Source: Planctomycetota bacterium
GTDB lineage: Bacteria; Planctomycetota; Planctomycetia; Gemmatales; Gemmataceae
DNA: 36,817 nt
Direction: 5' to 3'
NCBI GenBank assembly: GCA_021413735.1
Contig: JAIOPV010000163.1
Span: 1 to 36,817 of the forward strand
Shown: positions 1-15,229 of the stretch, one piece after another
Layout of the letters: every line of letters begins with the position of its first letter
Position numbering within the stretch: the first letter of the stretch is position 1
The notes under the pieces: model-generated
What the model saw: only the letters and a program-made list of their open reading frames with translations
The model's database searches: none
What the model was told of the DNA's origin: nothing
Made by a program: the position numbers and the translations under genes

Positions 1-3000
1 GGAGCCGCCCTCCGTTGCTGCCCAGACTCACTCAACGAACACTTACCGCCGTTGCTCGTGCTGCCGCCGTTGAGCATCTTGCTGGCCCGCGCACGAAGCC
101 GATCCGCCACAGCTCGCGCCGGTTCGGTTACTAACGGAACCGCTTCCGGCTTGTACTTCAACTCGCCGTTCTCTCGCGTCAACTTGATCCGGAATAAGTT
201 TTTGCTCAAGAACGCCGTCAGATCGCCCACAGGCGTGTTAATCATTCGCGCCAACACCTGCGAGACGAGCGTATAGAAGTCGAACTTCACGTACTCGCCG
301 CTGATGTCGATTTCTCCGCTGCCGCCCAGGCACAGAGCCTTGCCGATCAAATCGACCTGGTCGACCTTTATACGGTCGCCCTGAATGCGGAACGTGGCGT
401 GGGCTTCGTCGAATGCGGTCTTGTCCGGCACCTGGCCCTTCAGCACCTTCACGAGATCGAGCAGAACCGGCAGGTTGTACATGCGACCGGTTGGTACGTC
501 GATCTTGCCCGAGCCTTCGAGAACCAGCCGACCGGTCTTCGGGTCGGGGCGATTCGCGATCAAGAGTTGAGCCTGCGCGATCCCCTTAAGGTCAGCGTCG
601 GACCCAATCTTGTAGTGCTTGGCCATCTCATCGAGTTGAACGTCGGTGGCGGTGAGCCAGATGTTGAATCGCGGCTGTTCGGTGAGGATCAGGCGACCCT
701 GACCACCGAGGACGCCGTGGAACAGATCGCCAGCGACATCCGTGAACTCCGCTTCGATGGGCAGATACTCGCCAGGCTGCGCGGGGTCGGGTTGCTGTGG
801 TGCGGCCGCCACGCGGCACGAGAAGCGAGTCACCGGTTGACGGGCCACGACTGCACGGTCGAGCCAGATGGCTCCGCGGACGAGCCCGGTGTGGTTGCCG
901 TCGTAACGTCCCCGGCACGCGACCGCACCAAAGACCTGTTCCCAGGCGACACCAGTATCGAGCGATGCACCCGCTAATCGCAGTTCAGCATCCCAGTAGA
1001 CGGTTGCGGCTGTCGATGGTGCGGGTACTGTTGGATCAGTTGGCGTGAACTGCGCTCGTGTTTGGATCACGGTTGGCGCCGACCCCATCGGCGTCGCGAC
1101 GGGCAGCGGAGCGGGTTCCGGCGGCACGGCACGGTTGACCGCAGGCGGATCGAGCACCACGAGATGCTTCACCACCAGTTCCGCGCCGCCCTTGAGTTTC
1201 AACTCCTCGATCGCAGCACCAAGCTGACTTGGAAGCGCCCGTATCAGTGCTTCGTCGGCAATCAACGGCGATGCTTCAATACCGCCGAGGTTCGCCCACA
1301 CGGTGCCGTCGGGTGAGAATCGGATCTCTCCGGCTGACATCTTGAGACGAGTCTGGCCGTGTCGCGCGGCGACGTGTGCCACCCGAAGAGAGCCGTTCTT
1401 GTACTCCATGTAGCCCGACGTGTCGGTCATCTCATACGGCAGAAACGTCGGCGTGACCGTCGGCCCGGAAAAGTTAAACGTCAGCATCAAATCGCTGACA
1501 GGGTTGATGGGCAACCTCTCCGAATCGTGACTGCGAAGCGACCCTGCACGGTCCAGCAATTCCACGTCGGCGGAGAACGTAATTCGACCCGTGGGCTTGA
1601 ATCGCGTCCAGATCGTATCGGCTTTCACGGCGGCGAACGTGGCCTTGAGGTCGGCATCCAGCGGGCAGTTGTTCGCCCCAACGTGCAGCATCAGTTTCTT
1701 GTCGCGGCTGTTCGGAATCGACCGCTTCGATCCGTTCATCCAGACGGCAGCCCCGGCATGAGTTGCGGTGAAACCATCGAGCACGACTTCGTCGCGATCG
1801 GGCAACGGTTCCAGCGGTTCGCCCGGCCGTAGTGGGCGTGTTGGATCAGTGACCGTCGTGCGGACGACGAGCCGCCCCTTCACTTTCTCAAGCGAAAACG
1901 GCACCTCAAGATGGTTCAGGCTCGCATCGCGAACATCGACTCGGAACTCGTTTTCGCACAGGTTCACGCCGGGTTGCTGCACGAATTCAGCCACGAAATC
2001 TCCGCGACCCGCAGCCCGGAATCGACGCACGAGTTCCACGTACTTCGGCGGGAAAGCGTTGACGAGTGTTTCGTCCATCGCGAGGTTGGCGCCGCTGATC
2101 CGCAGATTGATGCCGGGGTCGGCACCATCTCCCACCACTTGACCCTTAACGGTGATGAGTTGACCGCCAGCTGTACCGATCAGGTCGATGGCAACCACAG
2201 GCGGACCGCTCGGCGTGTCGGTGCGTTTGACCCATCCGCGAACATCGGTGACGGGGTATTTGAACTTGTGGTACATCGCGGTCGTCTGCCGCGGGCGAAC
2301 CTCGAACTCGCGCTTCCAACTGCTCGACTCGCGGCTGAACTTGTAACTGATATCCACCTGCCCGACGGGTGAAAACTGTCGGCGATGTTCCTTCGCACGG
2401 TCCGGAAGATGCTTCACGAGTTCATCGTCGATCGTGACGCCAGACACAGTCAGTTCCGCCCGCTCGAGGAGTTCTTCCAGACGCCGCATCGACTCATCGA
2501 ACTTGGTTTCGTTCGTCGTTTTATAAGCCGTCGTTTCGACGAGAGTGTCCTTTGTTTCGAGCGAAAGTTTCACTTTTGCCCCGTTCACTTGCGCGGTCGC
2601 GTCGTCCACCCGCAACTGACCGTTCTTGATCCCGATTGATGCTGTGATCTTGTTGATGGGCCAGGGCAAATCTGTGTGCGTGTACTTCGCGTTCTTCACT
2701 TCGAGCCGCACATCATGCCGCCATTTCTTCGGTGCATCTGGCGTGTAAGAAAGGTCGGCCGTGACTGCAGCCGTCGCCGTGAGTCCCTTGATTTGCGGAG
2801 CGAGTGCGGGAGCGAATTTCTCTGCCGCGAGTGAGGCCACATCGCTGAGCGGGAACTCGGGCATCTCAACCGCAATCGACAACTTCCCGTTGGCGCGATT
2901 GACTTTCCCCCGAATCGAAACCTGCCCGAACGCACCGGCCGTAACCTTCGCCTGCACAGCGATCACGGTGAGCGGATCGTTCAGCAGTGTGAACTGTGCG

Positions 3001-3512
3001 TCGGTGAGTGTCGTCGCGGGAAACGCGTCCGGTGAGTTATCGGTGATGTGGATCGTTCCACCCTTCACGATGAACGTCGGGACCGGAGAATCGGCTGTTG
3101 CGGGCTTCTGCGAAGTGGGCGACTTCAGTACACCTTCGACGTTCCACTTTCCGTCGGCTCCGCGTTCGATCTGGAATACCGGATTCTCGAGTTCGATCTT
3201 TTTGACGACGAGCCGACCGCGATTCAACTGTTCCTTGTCGTGAGAGAGCACGCCCGTCGGCACAGTGAGAAACGGCGTCTCGGCTCCCTGGCGAGTGAGC
3301 CGCACATCGGTGACCGCGATGCCGCCGAAGAGCCGCAAGCGGGCATCGCCGACGTGAACATCGACGCCTTCAAACTGCTCGGAAAGGTTGGCGATCACCT
3401 GCGAACGGATGCGTTCGGGGCTAACCCAGGAGCGCGCGAGCCAGCCCAGGACGGCGAGCGACGCCACCCCAGTCAAGATCAGTCCTCGGATTGCCCAACT
3501 CCGCAGTGACAT
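1..3512 (-). CDS. AsmA/TamB-like inner-membrane-anchored envelope protein (3' end outside window)
   Basis: An open frame starts with ATG at 3512 and reads leftward without a stop to the window edge, giving about 1,170 visible residues. It begins MSLRSWAIRG and has one hydrophobic segment (about residues 8-25), then a long beta-rich region with no further membrane segments. The start of the soluble part resembles AsmA proteins (an SPERIRSQVIANL stretch followed by alternating hydrophobic strands such as VKKIELENPVFQIER), and the end has AsmA C-terminal-like blocks (GSGEIDISGEYVKFDF). AsmA/TamB/YhdP proteins are anchored in the inner membrane, span the periplasm and are implicated in lipid transport and outer-membrane homeostasis; that role here is inferred from fold-level resemblance. 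The C-terminus is missing, so total length is unknown. The gene stands alone, with about 240 bp to the clpS-like gene upstream. Confidence 0.75.
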   Translation of the reverse strand, partial: MSLRSWAIRGLILTGVASLAVLGWLARSWVSPERIRSQVIANLSEQFEGVDVHVGDARLRLFGGIAVTDVRLTRQGAETPFLTVPTGVLSHDKEQLNRGRLVVKKIELENPVFQIERGADGKWNVEGVLKSPTSQKPATADSPVPTFIVKGGTIHITDNSPDAFPATTLTDAQFTLLNDPLTVIAVQAKVTAGAFGQVSIRGKVNRANGKLSIAVEMPEFPLSDVASLAAEKFAPALAPQIKGLTATAAVTADLSYTPDAPKKWRHDVRLEVKNAKYTHTDLPWPINKITASIGIKNGQLRVDDATAQVNGAKVKLSLETKDTLVETTAYKTTNETKFDESMRRLEELLERAELTVSGVTIDDELVKHLPDRAKEHRRQFSPVGQVDISYKFSRESSSWKREFEVRPRQTTAMYHKFKYPVTDVRGWVKRTDTPSGPPVVAIDLIGTAGGQLITVKGQVVGDGADPGINLRISGANLAMDETLVNAFPPKYVELVRRFRAAGRGDFVAEFVQQPGVNLCENEFRVDVRDASLNHLEVPFSLEKVKGRLVVRTTVTDPTRPLRPGEPLEPLPDRDEVVLDGFTATHAGAAVWMNGSKRSIPNSRDKKLMLHVGANNCPLDADLKATFAAVKADTIWTRFKPTGRITFSADVELLDRAGSLRSHDSERLPINPVSDLMLTFNFSGPTVTPTFLPYEMTDTSGYMEYKNGSLRVAHVAARHGQTRLKMSAGEIRFSPDGTVWANLGGIEASPLIADEALIRALPSQLGAAIEELKLKGGAELVVKHLVVLDPPAVNRAVPPEPAPLPVATPMGSAPTVIQTRAQFTPTDPTVPAPSTAATVYWDAELRLAGASLDTGVAWEQVFGAVACRGRYDGNHTGLVRGAIWLDRAVVARQPVTRFSCRVAAAPQQPDPAQPGEYLPIEAEFTDVAGDLFHGVLGGQGRLILTEQPRFNIWLTATDVQLDEMAKHYKIGSDADLKGIAQAQLLIANRPDPKTGRLVLEGSGKIDVPTGRMYNLPVLLDLVKVLKGQVPDKTAFDEAHATFRIQGDRIKVDQVDLIGKALCLGGSGEIDISGEYVKFDFYTLVSQVLARMINTPVGDLTAFLSKNLFRIKLTRENGELKYKPEAVPLVTEPARAVADRLRARASKMLNGGSTSNGGKCSLSESGQQRRAA

Positions 3513-3691
3513 CCGCCACCTTCACGGCCTGCGTCGGCTCCGGGCCACACGCCCTGATAGTTCCGACAAGTCGCGGGACCATACGCAGAGTCCGGAATCT
3601 GGTCAATTGCGAGTGGCGACGGGCAATTTCGTGGGAATTTAGGCGAGTATTTGCCGCAATGTGGCTGATTTGACAGCAAATAAAGTGTAGC
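3513..3691. other. Intergenic region upstream of the AsmA-like gene
   Basis: No reading frame with a plausible start and codon use was found between the AsmA-like start and the clpS-like terminator region. It must hold the AsmA-like promoter on the minus strand, but I could not pick out a convincing -35/-10 pair. Confidence 0.4.
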
Positions 3692-3744
3692 CACCGCCTC
3701 ATCGGGGCGGTGTTATCGTGATGATCGCCACCCCGTTAGGGCGA
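3692..3744 (-). terminator. Tandem hairpins, probable terminator of the clpS-like gene
   Basis: Two stem-loops lie downstream of the clpS-like stop codon on the minus strand. The first pairs 3739-3743 with 3725-3729 (TCGCC/GGCGA). The second is a 7-bp stem, CACCGCC at 3692-3698 against GGCGGTG at 3706-3712, followed on the minus strand by a T-rich tract (TTTATTT around 3677-3684). A weak-to-moderate intrinsic terminator is the simplest reading. Confidence 0.45.
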
Positions 3745-3758
3745 CGGCTCAATAAGCG

Positions 3759-4061
3759 TCACTCCGGTTCGATCGTGGCTGCGAGTCCGCGATCGGCGAA
3801 CTGTTCGACGAACAATTCTGCTCGCTCCAGGTGCGTAACCACCACAAGGGAGCGTCCCCCGTGATGCACTTCCCACATTCGGTGCTCGGCTTCAGCCGTT
3901 CCGAATTTCGTGAGTTCCATGACAACTTTTGCGACGAACAGCAAATTCTTCTCGGCGGTCCGGTGAAGGACGACCTTGAAGCGTCGCGGAAATCGGCTGA
4001 CGGTCCCGAACGCCCAAAAATCCAGGCGATCGTGCTGCCGATGTGGGGGGCGGATGGACAT
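3759..4061 (-). CDS. Divergent ClpS-like adaptor protein
   Basis: This 100-residue protein matches the ClpS fold along its length: FKVVLHRT (strand 1), LLFVAKVVMELTKF (helix), AEAEHRMWEVHHGGRS and THLERAELFVEQFADRGL, ending in TIEPE. ClpS binds ClpA/ClpC and delivers substrates bearing bulky N-terminal residues. In canonical ClpS an NDD-type stretch after strand 1 (Asn34/Asp35 in E. coli) binds the substrate alpha-amino group. Here it is replaced by HRTAEKN, while the pocket histidine is retained in WEVHHGG. It may therefore bind altered ligands or act only as a Clp regulator. ATG at 4061 was chosen because GAGG lies about 6 nt upstream; the frame stays open further upstream but shows no protein-like character there. 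Confidence 0.72.
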   Translation of the reverse strand: MSIRPPHRQHDRLDFWAFGTVSRFPRRFKVVLHRTAEKNLLFVAKVVMELTKFGTAEAEHRMWEVHHGGRSLVVVTHLERAELFVEQFADRGLAATIEPE

Positions 4062-14404: not shown

Positions 14405-14965
14405 TCAATCATCCCTGCTTCGCGTGTTCCTGGTCAAGCACATCCGGTTGATGTACTGCACCAGCACGGCGGCGTGGGCGAGCGGTTGGTTCGCGTCGTT
14501 GATGTCGCCACTGTCGCCGACATCGTGAATGTACTGCGTCACGCCCGACAACGCCGTTTCAATCATGCCCTCCAGCAACTCCGACGCGATGCAGTGAGTC
14601 AGCATCCACTCGTAAGTCGGAATGTAGATCAGGCGGCGAGCCTCCACGATGCCCAACAGCTTCTTGCCGAAGCGATGACCCGACGGCTTGCCGCCGCGTT
14701 TCGCTCCGTGTCCGTGAAAGTAACGCGGAGCGATCTCGCCGCGAATCACCTTCAAACCCTGCCACACACCTTCAACCGTGTCGGATGTGGTGCCAGTCAT
14801 GCCGGGAACGGGAATGTCGCCGTGAACCCACATCGGGCTGAGCGTGCAGTATGGTTCCGGGGCGTAACTGCTGACGTCAATGATGGTGCTGCCCGTCGGC
14901 AGATTTTCGACGTGATAACGAGGCGTGAAGACAGCTCGTGCGAATGGCAACCGATTGCGAGACAT
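14405..14965 (-). CDS. DUF6939-like protein of unknown function
   Basis: From ATG 14965 the protein has 186 residues. The core resembles a family I recall as DUF6939, known from actinobacteria and others: IDVSSYAPEP, a WVHGDIPVPGM block, SDTVEGVWQGLKVI, GHRFGKKLLG and ARRLIYIPTYEWML. The function is unknown and no catalytic motif can be assigned. The family name comes from memory and needs a profile search. ATG 14965 is preferred over the longer frame (to 15031) because GGGG lies about 8 nt upstream and the longer version would overlap the trailer stem of the permuted tRNA locus. The gene lies directly downstream of that locus on the same strand, so the two could share a transcript. Confidence 0.6.
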   Translation of the reverse strand: MSRNRLPFARAVFTPRYHVENLPTGSTIIDVSSYAPEPYCTLSPMWVHGDIPVPGMTGTTSDTVEGVWQGLKVIRGEIAPRYFHGHGAKRGGKPSGHRFGKKLLGIVEARRLIYIPTYEWMLTHCIASELLEGMIETALSGVTQYIHDVGDSGDINDANQPLAHAAVLVQYINRMCLTRNTRSRDD

Positions 14966-14998
14966 GACAAGCCCCGCGAAGCAAGAAATGATGGCGAT

Positions 14999-15169
14999 GA
15001 ACACTGCGAGCGAACCGCACAAGTCCGGCAAGCTAGTATCACTGAGTGCTCTACCGTTGAGCTACCCCCCGTGAGTCGAGGGGACAGGAGTCGAACCTGT
15101 TGCCACTCCCTTATGAGGGGAACGTGTTTGTAAGCCCGTCGTGTGGGTTGCGATTCGCTCGCAGTGTTC
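14999..15169 (-). ncRNA. Probable precursor RNA of a permuted tRNA, closed by a 21-bp leader/trailer helix
   Basis: On the minus strand a leader arm (15169 down to 15149) and a trailer arm (15019 down to 14999) are complementary over 21 nt. One position is G-U on the minus strand but A-C on the plus strand, so the fully paired form exists only in minus-strand RNA. The arms enclose a permuted tRNA (15044-15119). A 3-bp CAC/GTG pairing (15126-15124 with 15042-15040) lies next to the tRNA break points. A possible -10 box (TATGCT, 15178-15173) precedes the leader, without a clear -35. The transcript ends are inferred from the helix. Confidence 0.55.
15044..15119 (-). tRNA. Circularly permuted tRNA with CAU anticodon (Met-type)
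   Basis: Read 5' to 3' on the minus strand, the 3' half comes first. CC (second part of the anticodon stem), loop CTCATAA with anticodon CAT (15115-15113), stem GGGAG (15110-15106), variable loop TGGCA, T arm ACAGG-TTCGACT-CCTGT (15100-15084), acceptor strand CCCCTCG (15083-15077), A73 (15076). After a 4-nt linker CTCA comes the 5' half: acceptor CGGGGGG (15071-15065), TA, D arm GCTC-AACGGTA-GAGC (15062-15048), A26, CTC (15046-15044). Joined, these give a 72-nt cloverleaf: acceptor 7/7 (with G3-U70), D 4/4, anticodon CTCCC/GGGAG 5/5, T 5/5. No CCA is encoded. The loop is of elongator-Met type; Ile2 with lysidine is an alternative. Odd points are C1-G72, A48 and the Ala-type G3-U70 pair. Two truncated neighbouring tRNAs remain possible, but the coinciding break points argue against that. 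Confidence 0.7.
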
Positions 15170-15229
15170 GCAAGCATAGACACAGCAAGCCGCGGCAGGT
15201 TCGCGGAATTATTCGGTTCTCGGCTGTGT

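Follow-up and report, generated by a model that had tools for sequence, protein, structure and literature searches.

Does the locus analysed here hold a circularly permuted tRNA gene, or does it encode another kind of RNA that carries a tRNA-like fold? The window, that is, the whole stretch of DNA that was analysed (36,817 nucleotides), is the entire contig C134 of a 9.8-Mb genome. On its minus strand (15119-15044) the 3′ part of a tRNA is followed by CTCA and then by the 5′ part; rejoined, the two parts pair as a cloverleaf. The first-pass annotation had placed this element correctly and had read it as a circularly permuted tRNA gene, of which it knew no bacterial case other than two-piece tmRNAs. 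We propose that the locus encodes a YrlA-type Y RNA, with a stem handle, a permuted tRNA-like head, a putative divergent Ro60 partner and a presumed tether role, and put the probability of this reading at about 0.9.

Structure of the permuted element

The features of the locus are collected in Table 1.

Table 1 Features of the Y RNA locus and its surroundings in window coordinates. N16, spacer of 16 nucleotides.
Feature	Position	Strand	Remarks
Promoter-like motif GAACC-N16-GTC	15179..15202	minus	directly upstream of the RNA
Proposed Y RNA, entire (terminal Ro60-type stem and permuted head)	14999..15169	minus	inverted repeat, fold, covariation; ends predicted
Terminal stem, 5′ strand	15149..15169	minus	21 nt, 95% complementary; two-sided changes in 11 of 16 stem pairs
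Leader motif CTTACAAAC	15126..15134	minus	TACA[AC]AC in 39 of 43 related units
Anticodon-type stem-loop CCC-CTCATAA-GGGAG	15106..15120	minus	lower two pairs formed with 15046-15045
CCC	15120-15118	minus	
Anticodon-type loop CTCATAA	15117-15111	minus	
GGGAG	15110-15106	minus	
TGGCA	15105-15101	minus	
T arm, TTCGACT loop	15100-15084	minus	
Acceptor helix	15065..15083	minus	loop A-CTCA (15076-15072); two-sided changes in 7 of 7 pairs
Acceptor 3′ strand CCCCTCG	15083-15077	minus	
A73	15076	minus	
Spacer CTCA	15075-15072	minus	
Acceptor 5′ strand CGGGGGG	15071-15065	minus	
D arm	15062-15048	minus	
A26 and CTC	down to 15044	minus	
Trailer motif ACTTGT	15019..15024	minus	ACTYGT in 41 of 43 related units
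Terminal stem, 3′ strand	14999..15019	minus	inverted repeat and ortholog covariation
DUF6939 gene	14408-14968	minus	downstream of the hairpin

The extent first assigned to the element was right for the tRNA-like part and stopped too early: a 21-nt inverted repeat flanks that part on both sides, and together they form one hairpin of about 170 nt (-79.8 kcal/mol; z -5.95; none of 200 shuffles equally stable). The break point is ambiguous by one base, the C of position 29 being present at both sides. The acceptor helix is closed by the loop A-CTCA and so has no free 3′ end.

No tRNA was called by ARAGORN on the unaltered window. After scripted rejoining the commonest call was tRNA-Met(cat), in 49 of 304 trial joins; with that many joins tried, the call reads back the anticodon and is no test. 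A finder for permuted units (T arm, acceptor, spacer of at most 20, acceptor, D arm) returned a single match in the window, with a score of 18; when both strands of 40 dinucleotide-shuffled copies of the window (1.47 Mb) were searched, seven matches at 13-14 and none at 15 or above were obtained.

Conservation and covariation

A BLAST search with the unit across 95 genomes of the family gave homologs (E < 1e-6) in 10 other genomes; many of the weaker matches resemble the D arm or the T arm alone of ordinary tRNAs. Thirteen orthologs were aligned (alignment A3), one of 14 being left out for its 41-base spacer (L040). RNAalifold recovered the same architecture from the 13 orthologs with no structure imposed (40 pairs, 26 with two-sided changes). 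For a structure of 46 specified pairs, 92.6% of cells are paired and two-sided changes occur in 28 pairs and 80 cells; shuffled alignments give 13.6 such pairs, none of the 500 reaching 28, and sliding the structure along the alignment gives 7 to 18. Paired cells, two-sided pairs and two-sided cells all exceed the 500 shuffles and the slid versions, of which the latter weigh more since shuffles ignore relatedness. Two weak spots were seen: the proposed helix 51-53/144-146 is only 64% paired and has no two-sided change, and 7 of the 13 sequences have no pair at alignment columns 72-139.

Of the pairs that span the break, 42:28 (alignment columns 70-141) shows two-sided changes in two of the 13 orthologs and 43:27 (columns 71-140) in one. 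The first-pass annotation had argued for a circularly permuted fold over two chance truncations, and the covariation of these pairs bears it out. It had also pointed to relatives as a place where the stems might have decayed; there the locus is conserved, with compensatory changes in the 13 orthologs.

Such changes across species speak against the element being, in its present state, a relic of two truncated tandem tRNA copies or debris from integration into a tRNA gene, and so does the occurrence of units in defined arrays beside one gene (see below). We regard a relic as scarcely credible. As to origin, tandem duplication followed by loss has been proposed as a route to permutations, for proteins, in a passage of PMC10085705, and the ordinary CAU tRNAs on contigs C59 and C175 (L177, L187) are followed by A-CTCA, the very letters that close the permuted acceptor loop. 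This fits descent from tandem tRNAs and is a hint that the permuted units may have arisen in that way. Elsewhere in the same genome, loose 3′ halves that run from the anticodon stem on (L189, C228; L190, C238) are identical to the CAU tRNAs of C59 and C242 and look like attachment-site copies from integrating elements; a dense array on C171 (L103/L186) has 21 ARAGORN tRNA calls in 3 kb, several of them degenerate.

Anticodon and acceptor

A genuine permuted tRNA(CAU) gene, whose transcript would be cut, ligated at 29/30 and trimmed at the acceptor to serve in translation, as in red algae, would account for the presence of every tRNA stem, of the D-loop GG, TTCGACT and CTCATAA, and for the covariation of the junction pairs. 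The anticodon is not conserved, however: six different triplets occur among the 13 orthologs (CAT 6, GCT 3, CGA 1, TTT 1, GAT 1, GAG 1; A3 columns 62-64). Among the sibling unit-4 RNAs of the arrays it is likewise variable, and 3 of 12 lack the anticodon arm altogether. The acceptor is a closed hairpin, and neither the long stem nor the linkage to a Ro60-like gene would be explained. Counting CAU tRNAs, one of the checks first suggested for a tRNA gene, went against it: three ordinary ones are present elsewhere in the genome (C59, C175, C242; 56.6-69.2 bits, above the Rfam cut-off; ARAGORN tRNA-Met(cat) each), counted together across possible initiator, elongator and Ile classes, so that a further one is not needed for the codon. 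Two other CTCATAA sites (C171, C238) fail to exceed the Rfam tRNA cut-off. With the anticodon varying, the acceptor closed by a short loop and ordinary CAU tRNAs at hand, the assignment as a tRNA gene was given up; we consider it very improbable.

Arrays of permuted units in relatives

In relatives, the ortholog of the window element opens an array and is termed unit 1; such arrays comprise as many as four permuted tRNA-like units, whose T loops are about 165-220 bases apart (L031, L032, L034, L036, L040); ARAGORN called no tRNA on these five loci. By eye, the array members resemble different tRNA types: unit 3 is Leu-like and unit 4 is Ser-like, both with variable arms, and unit 1 is of CAU and other types. 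The leader and trailer frequencies of Table 1 were tallied over 43 units. Named carriers of such loci include Gemmata sp. IIL30 (L150) and Zavarzinella formosa DSM 19928 (L164).

In the genome of the window, units 3 and 4 lie on contig C41 with a Ro60-like gene and unit 1 stands alone in the window, away from that gene. Unit 1 is likewise set apart in the closest relative found (G022), at about 2 kb from the remaining units. In another genome (G087; L035, 9567-10949) a transposase-like frame, IS66-like by eye, splits the unit-1 Y RNA in its acceptor loop.

A second kind of permuted tRNA-like unit, often in tandem pairs, was seen at L042, L043, L046, L047, L048, L050, L100 and L101; these units have TAGCCCAACGG and TCGCCTAACGG D arms, and one has a long anticodon-side stem. 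In L046 they lie upstream of a tRNA nucleotidyltransferase gene (PolyA_pol, E 4.1e-30), as, judged by eye, they do in L042 and L043. Of the L048 units, one has a fold of chance-level stability (z -0.46) and the other has z -2.28.

Match to YrlA

Covariance models, named as a check in the first-pass annotation, favour a Y RNA: the best family for the window unit is Rfam YrlA (RF02553; 36.4 bits, E 1.7e-6), matched in the same permuted order, as against 22.5 bits for the plain tRNA model. At curated thresholds no Rfam family was found at the locus. Only model positions 23-89 align, and the score lies below the curated YrlA cut-off of 69; we therefore call the unit YrlA-type and do not file it as a member of RF02553. 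One array member (L031) aligns with YrlA end to end at 51.6 bits. The window unit has the T arm, acceptor hairpin and D arm in the YrlA order and a long stem formed by its paired 5′ and 3′ ends; as a candidate Ro60-binding sequence in the terminal stem, the ACTYGT trailer resembles AcUuGu of the 3′ strand in Rfam YrlA, the window alignment being confined to model positions 23-89.

Matches below the cut-off were also found in 9 of 14 control genomes, so the score alone proves little. Such matches were not counted as Y RNAs on their own, both for this reason and because tandem ordinary tRNAs can look permuted (L049, L094). As a positive control, classical TROVE genes are present in 15 of the 95 genomes of the family, with a YrlA-model match within about 1 kb in 8 of the 15. 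In L089 a YrlA match above the curated cut-off (74.7 bits) adjoins a frame that resembles the TROVE protein of the genome of the window (tblastn, 22% identity); the TROVE profile search of the L089 genome gave no match.

Bacterial Y RNAs have reportedly been surveyed (Chen 2014), and a further paper (Wang 2018) is said to be tied to YrlA or bacterial Y RNA. Structure 6CU1 is that of Salmonella YrlA. According to PMC11472068, the bacterial Y RNA in 6CU1 can be superposed on tRNAs once their order is circularly permuted; the description of Y RNA as a circularly permuted tRNA is thus already in print. With this and the Rfam match in the same order, the notion that such permutation is unknown in bacteria is not supported. 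PMC8394870 describes YrlA as a tether between Rsr and PNPase, built of a long stem and a tRNA-like domain similar to the D, T and acceptor arms.

A predicted divergent Ro60-type protein beside the arrays

The arrays lie directly upstream of a gene for a protein of about 530 aa with a vWA-type DKSGSM motif. The C41 protein matched no Pfam family at E 0.01 and the L031 homolog one unrelated family at E 10; there was no NCBIfam match of note and no useful PDB sequence match. Assignment to TROVE by sequence was thus tried and failed with Pfam, NCBIfam, the PDB sequence search and BLASTP against the TROVE protein of the same genome. PADLOC reported nothing for the Ro60-like or the TROVE protein.

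An AlphaFold model built with 23 homologs (pLDDT 83.4, pTM 0.70) has a ring of helical repeats and a vWA fold. In Foldseek against the PDB its best 13 matches are all Ro60/Rsr/TROVE (E 2.4e-12 to 7.4e-9); aligned to Ro60/Rsr with VIA-align it gives Z 18.9-22.8, rmsd 3.8-5.0 and 417-439 residues, and the next rows are vWA domains alone (Z 16.1). An earlier model from 10 sequences (pLDDT 65.7) had pointed to the same family (TM 0.39-0.45), with Z slightly above or level with the vWA-only rows and an aligned length twice theirs. The second model settled the assignment to a predicted Ro60 fold, which came to light through structure and not through sequence. From the Foldseek and VIA-align results, the predicted fold marks the protein as a divergent member of the Ro60 type; similarity of fold does not establish RNA binding.

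The Ro60-like protein is encoded by 24 of the 102 genomes from the order and by 9 of 392 genomes sampled across the phylum, the genome of the window among the 9. Permuted units lie within 1.5 kb upstream of its gene in 15 of the 24, again including this genome; a score-13 finder match inside a coding sequence (L132) was left out of the count. The other nine have no intact upstream unit: three genes lie at contig edges (G025, G042, G029), one unit is split (G087) and five genomes have none (G004, G027, G030, G043, G050). Among 25 Ro60-like loci from the contig collection, which overlap with the 24 genomes, units are nearby in 18; in L165 they are downstream only, at about 1.9 kb. These loci include bins labelled Phycisphaeraceae, Abditibacterium and Thermoflexales, the latter two as single bins.

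The genome of the window also has a classical TROVE gene, on a separate contig (C128; L054). This gene lies beside that of a sigma-54 activator, RtcR-like by eye, in divergent orientation, as in RNA repair operons; no permuted unit was found beside the TROVE gene. On C213 (L055) there is another TROVE-like frame, a weak one that contains a single in-frame TGA. For some Ro60-like proteins (L123, L124, L126, L129) the frame is longer, being extended at the N terminus, and no Y RNA unit lies upstream; the L129 protein (592-4005, G027) has an intein at the vWA MIDAS motif (Intein_splicing, E 4.6e-12; LAGLIDADG_3, E 3.5e-17).

Promoter-like motif and downstream gene

The motif GAACC-N16-GTC lies upstream of unit 1 at a near-fixed distance in 12 of 14 unit-1 loci, that of the window included; its density in this DNA, with spacers of 15-19 allowed, is 0.18 per kb of strand. 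It resembles ECF-sigma promoters. As the motif was picked by reading the orthologs, that is, after the sequences had been seen, and the loci are related, its standing as a candidate ECF-type promoter of unit 1 is suggestive only. A scan of the minus strand for sigma-70-type promoters gave nothing.

Instead of being a free RNA, the hairpin might act in cis, as the leader of the DUF6939 gene that lies downstream. The hairpin ends 30 bases from a plausible ATG, picked by eye, and no intrinsic terminator was seen on the minus strand between 14900 and 15350, both of which would suit a leader. Against it, units lie upstream of the Ro60-like gene in 15 genomes, and tblastn of 34 loci around units gave no DUF6939 relative; the chance that the hairpin acts as a leader is very small.

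Proposed function

We infer that the Y RNA is transcribed and that it is bound by a Ro60-type protein, its partner being probably a highly divergent Ro60 relative. The ends of the RNA would pair into the long stem, a putative Ro60-binding handle, and the head would be a tRNA-like module with its own 5′ and 3′ ends where the anticodon stem would open; it is the place of these ends that makes the tRNA look permuted. On the YrlA architecture as given in passages of PMC8394870 and PMC11472068, the 29/30 break would be the entry point of the Ro60-type stem. No circularisation or religation would be required, and the permuted molecule itself would be the working form. The partner would be the divergent Ro60 ring (helical-repeat ring and vWA domain) encoded beside the arrays in relatives and on C41. 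The RNA could tether this ring to a reader of tRNA shape, either PNPase or a tRNA-binding or tRNA-modifying enzyme, and so may direct how structured RNA is degraded or handled under stress.

Within the Y RNA reading, and with odds that overlap its own, the RNA could serve chiefly as a decoy or sensor of tRNA-cutting or tRNA-modifying enzymes and not as a nuclease tether. The array members do differ in the tRNA type that they resemble (see above), and PMC7790460 considers that YrlA might competitively inhibit an anticodon nuclease; the anticodon loops, on the other hand, drift among orthologs, and we hold a chiefly decoy role to be possible and rather doubtful. Equally tentative is the idea that a library of near-complete tRNA mimics (CAU-type, Leu-like, Ser-like with a long variable arm) hangs on one divergent Ro60 ring under an ECF-type promoter, as a stress-induced device for tRNA surveillance or as bait against nucleases, in which the type of tRNA mimicked would set the target.

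The claim of a first bacterial permuted tRNA gene is removed and is replaced by that of arrayed Y RNAs which mimic whole tRNAs and are tied to a Ro60 family missed by the profile libraries tried. Whole-tRNA mimicry of several types in arrays, the divergent Ro60 family and the conserved ECF-like promoter motif are seemingly new; in one open-licence library no paper joining YrlA with planctomycetes, or Ro60 with Gemmata, was found. Since related loci occur in planctomycetes and in the Abditibacterium and Thermoflexales bins, Ro60/Y RNA systems are likely under-counted. Since the tRNA type varies between array members, recruitment by the tRNA-like head becomes testable.

Comparison with known systems

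With permuted (two-piece) tmRNA the locus shares a permuted tRNA-like domain in bacteria; tmRNA was rejected, as no tmRNA family matches at the locus. The protein resembles Ro60/Rsr (Pfam TROVE, PF05731) in predicted fold over about 430 residues, but at 12-16% identity and with no TROVE profile match. YrlA is like the RNA described here in its long terminal stem followed by T arm, hairpin acceptor and D arm in the same permuted order, and in its linkage to a Ro60-fold gene, here in relatives. The RNA differs from YrlA in scoring below the Rfam cut-off, in its anticodon-type stem-loop (a long variable arm in siblings), which is no consensus feature of the Rfam model, in the arrays of up to four RNAs and in a partner protein outside Pfam TROVE. 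Algal and archaeal permuted tRNA genes likewise encode the 3′ half ahead of the 5′ half, and yield mature tRNAs after circularisation according to a passage of PMC10085705; here, in contrast, the anticodon is not conserved and the permuted form is itself likely the working form.
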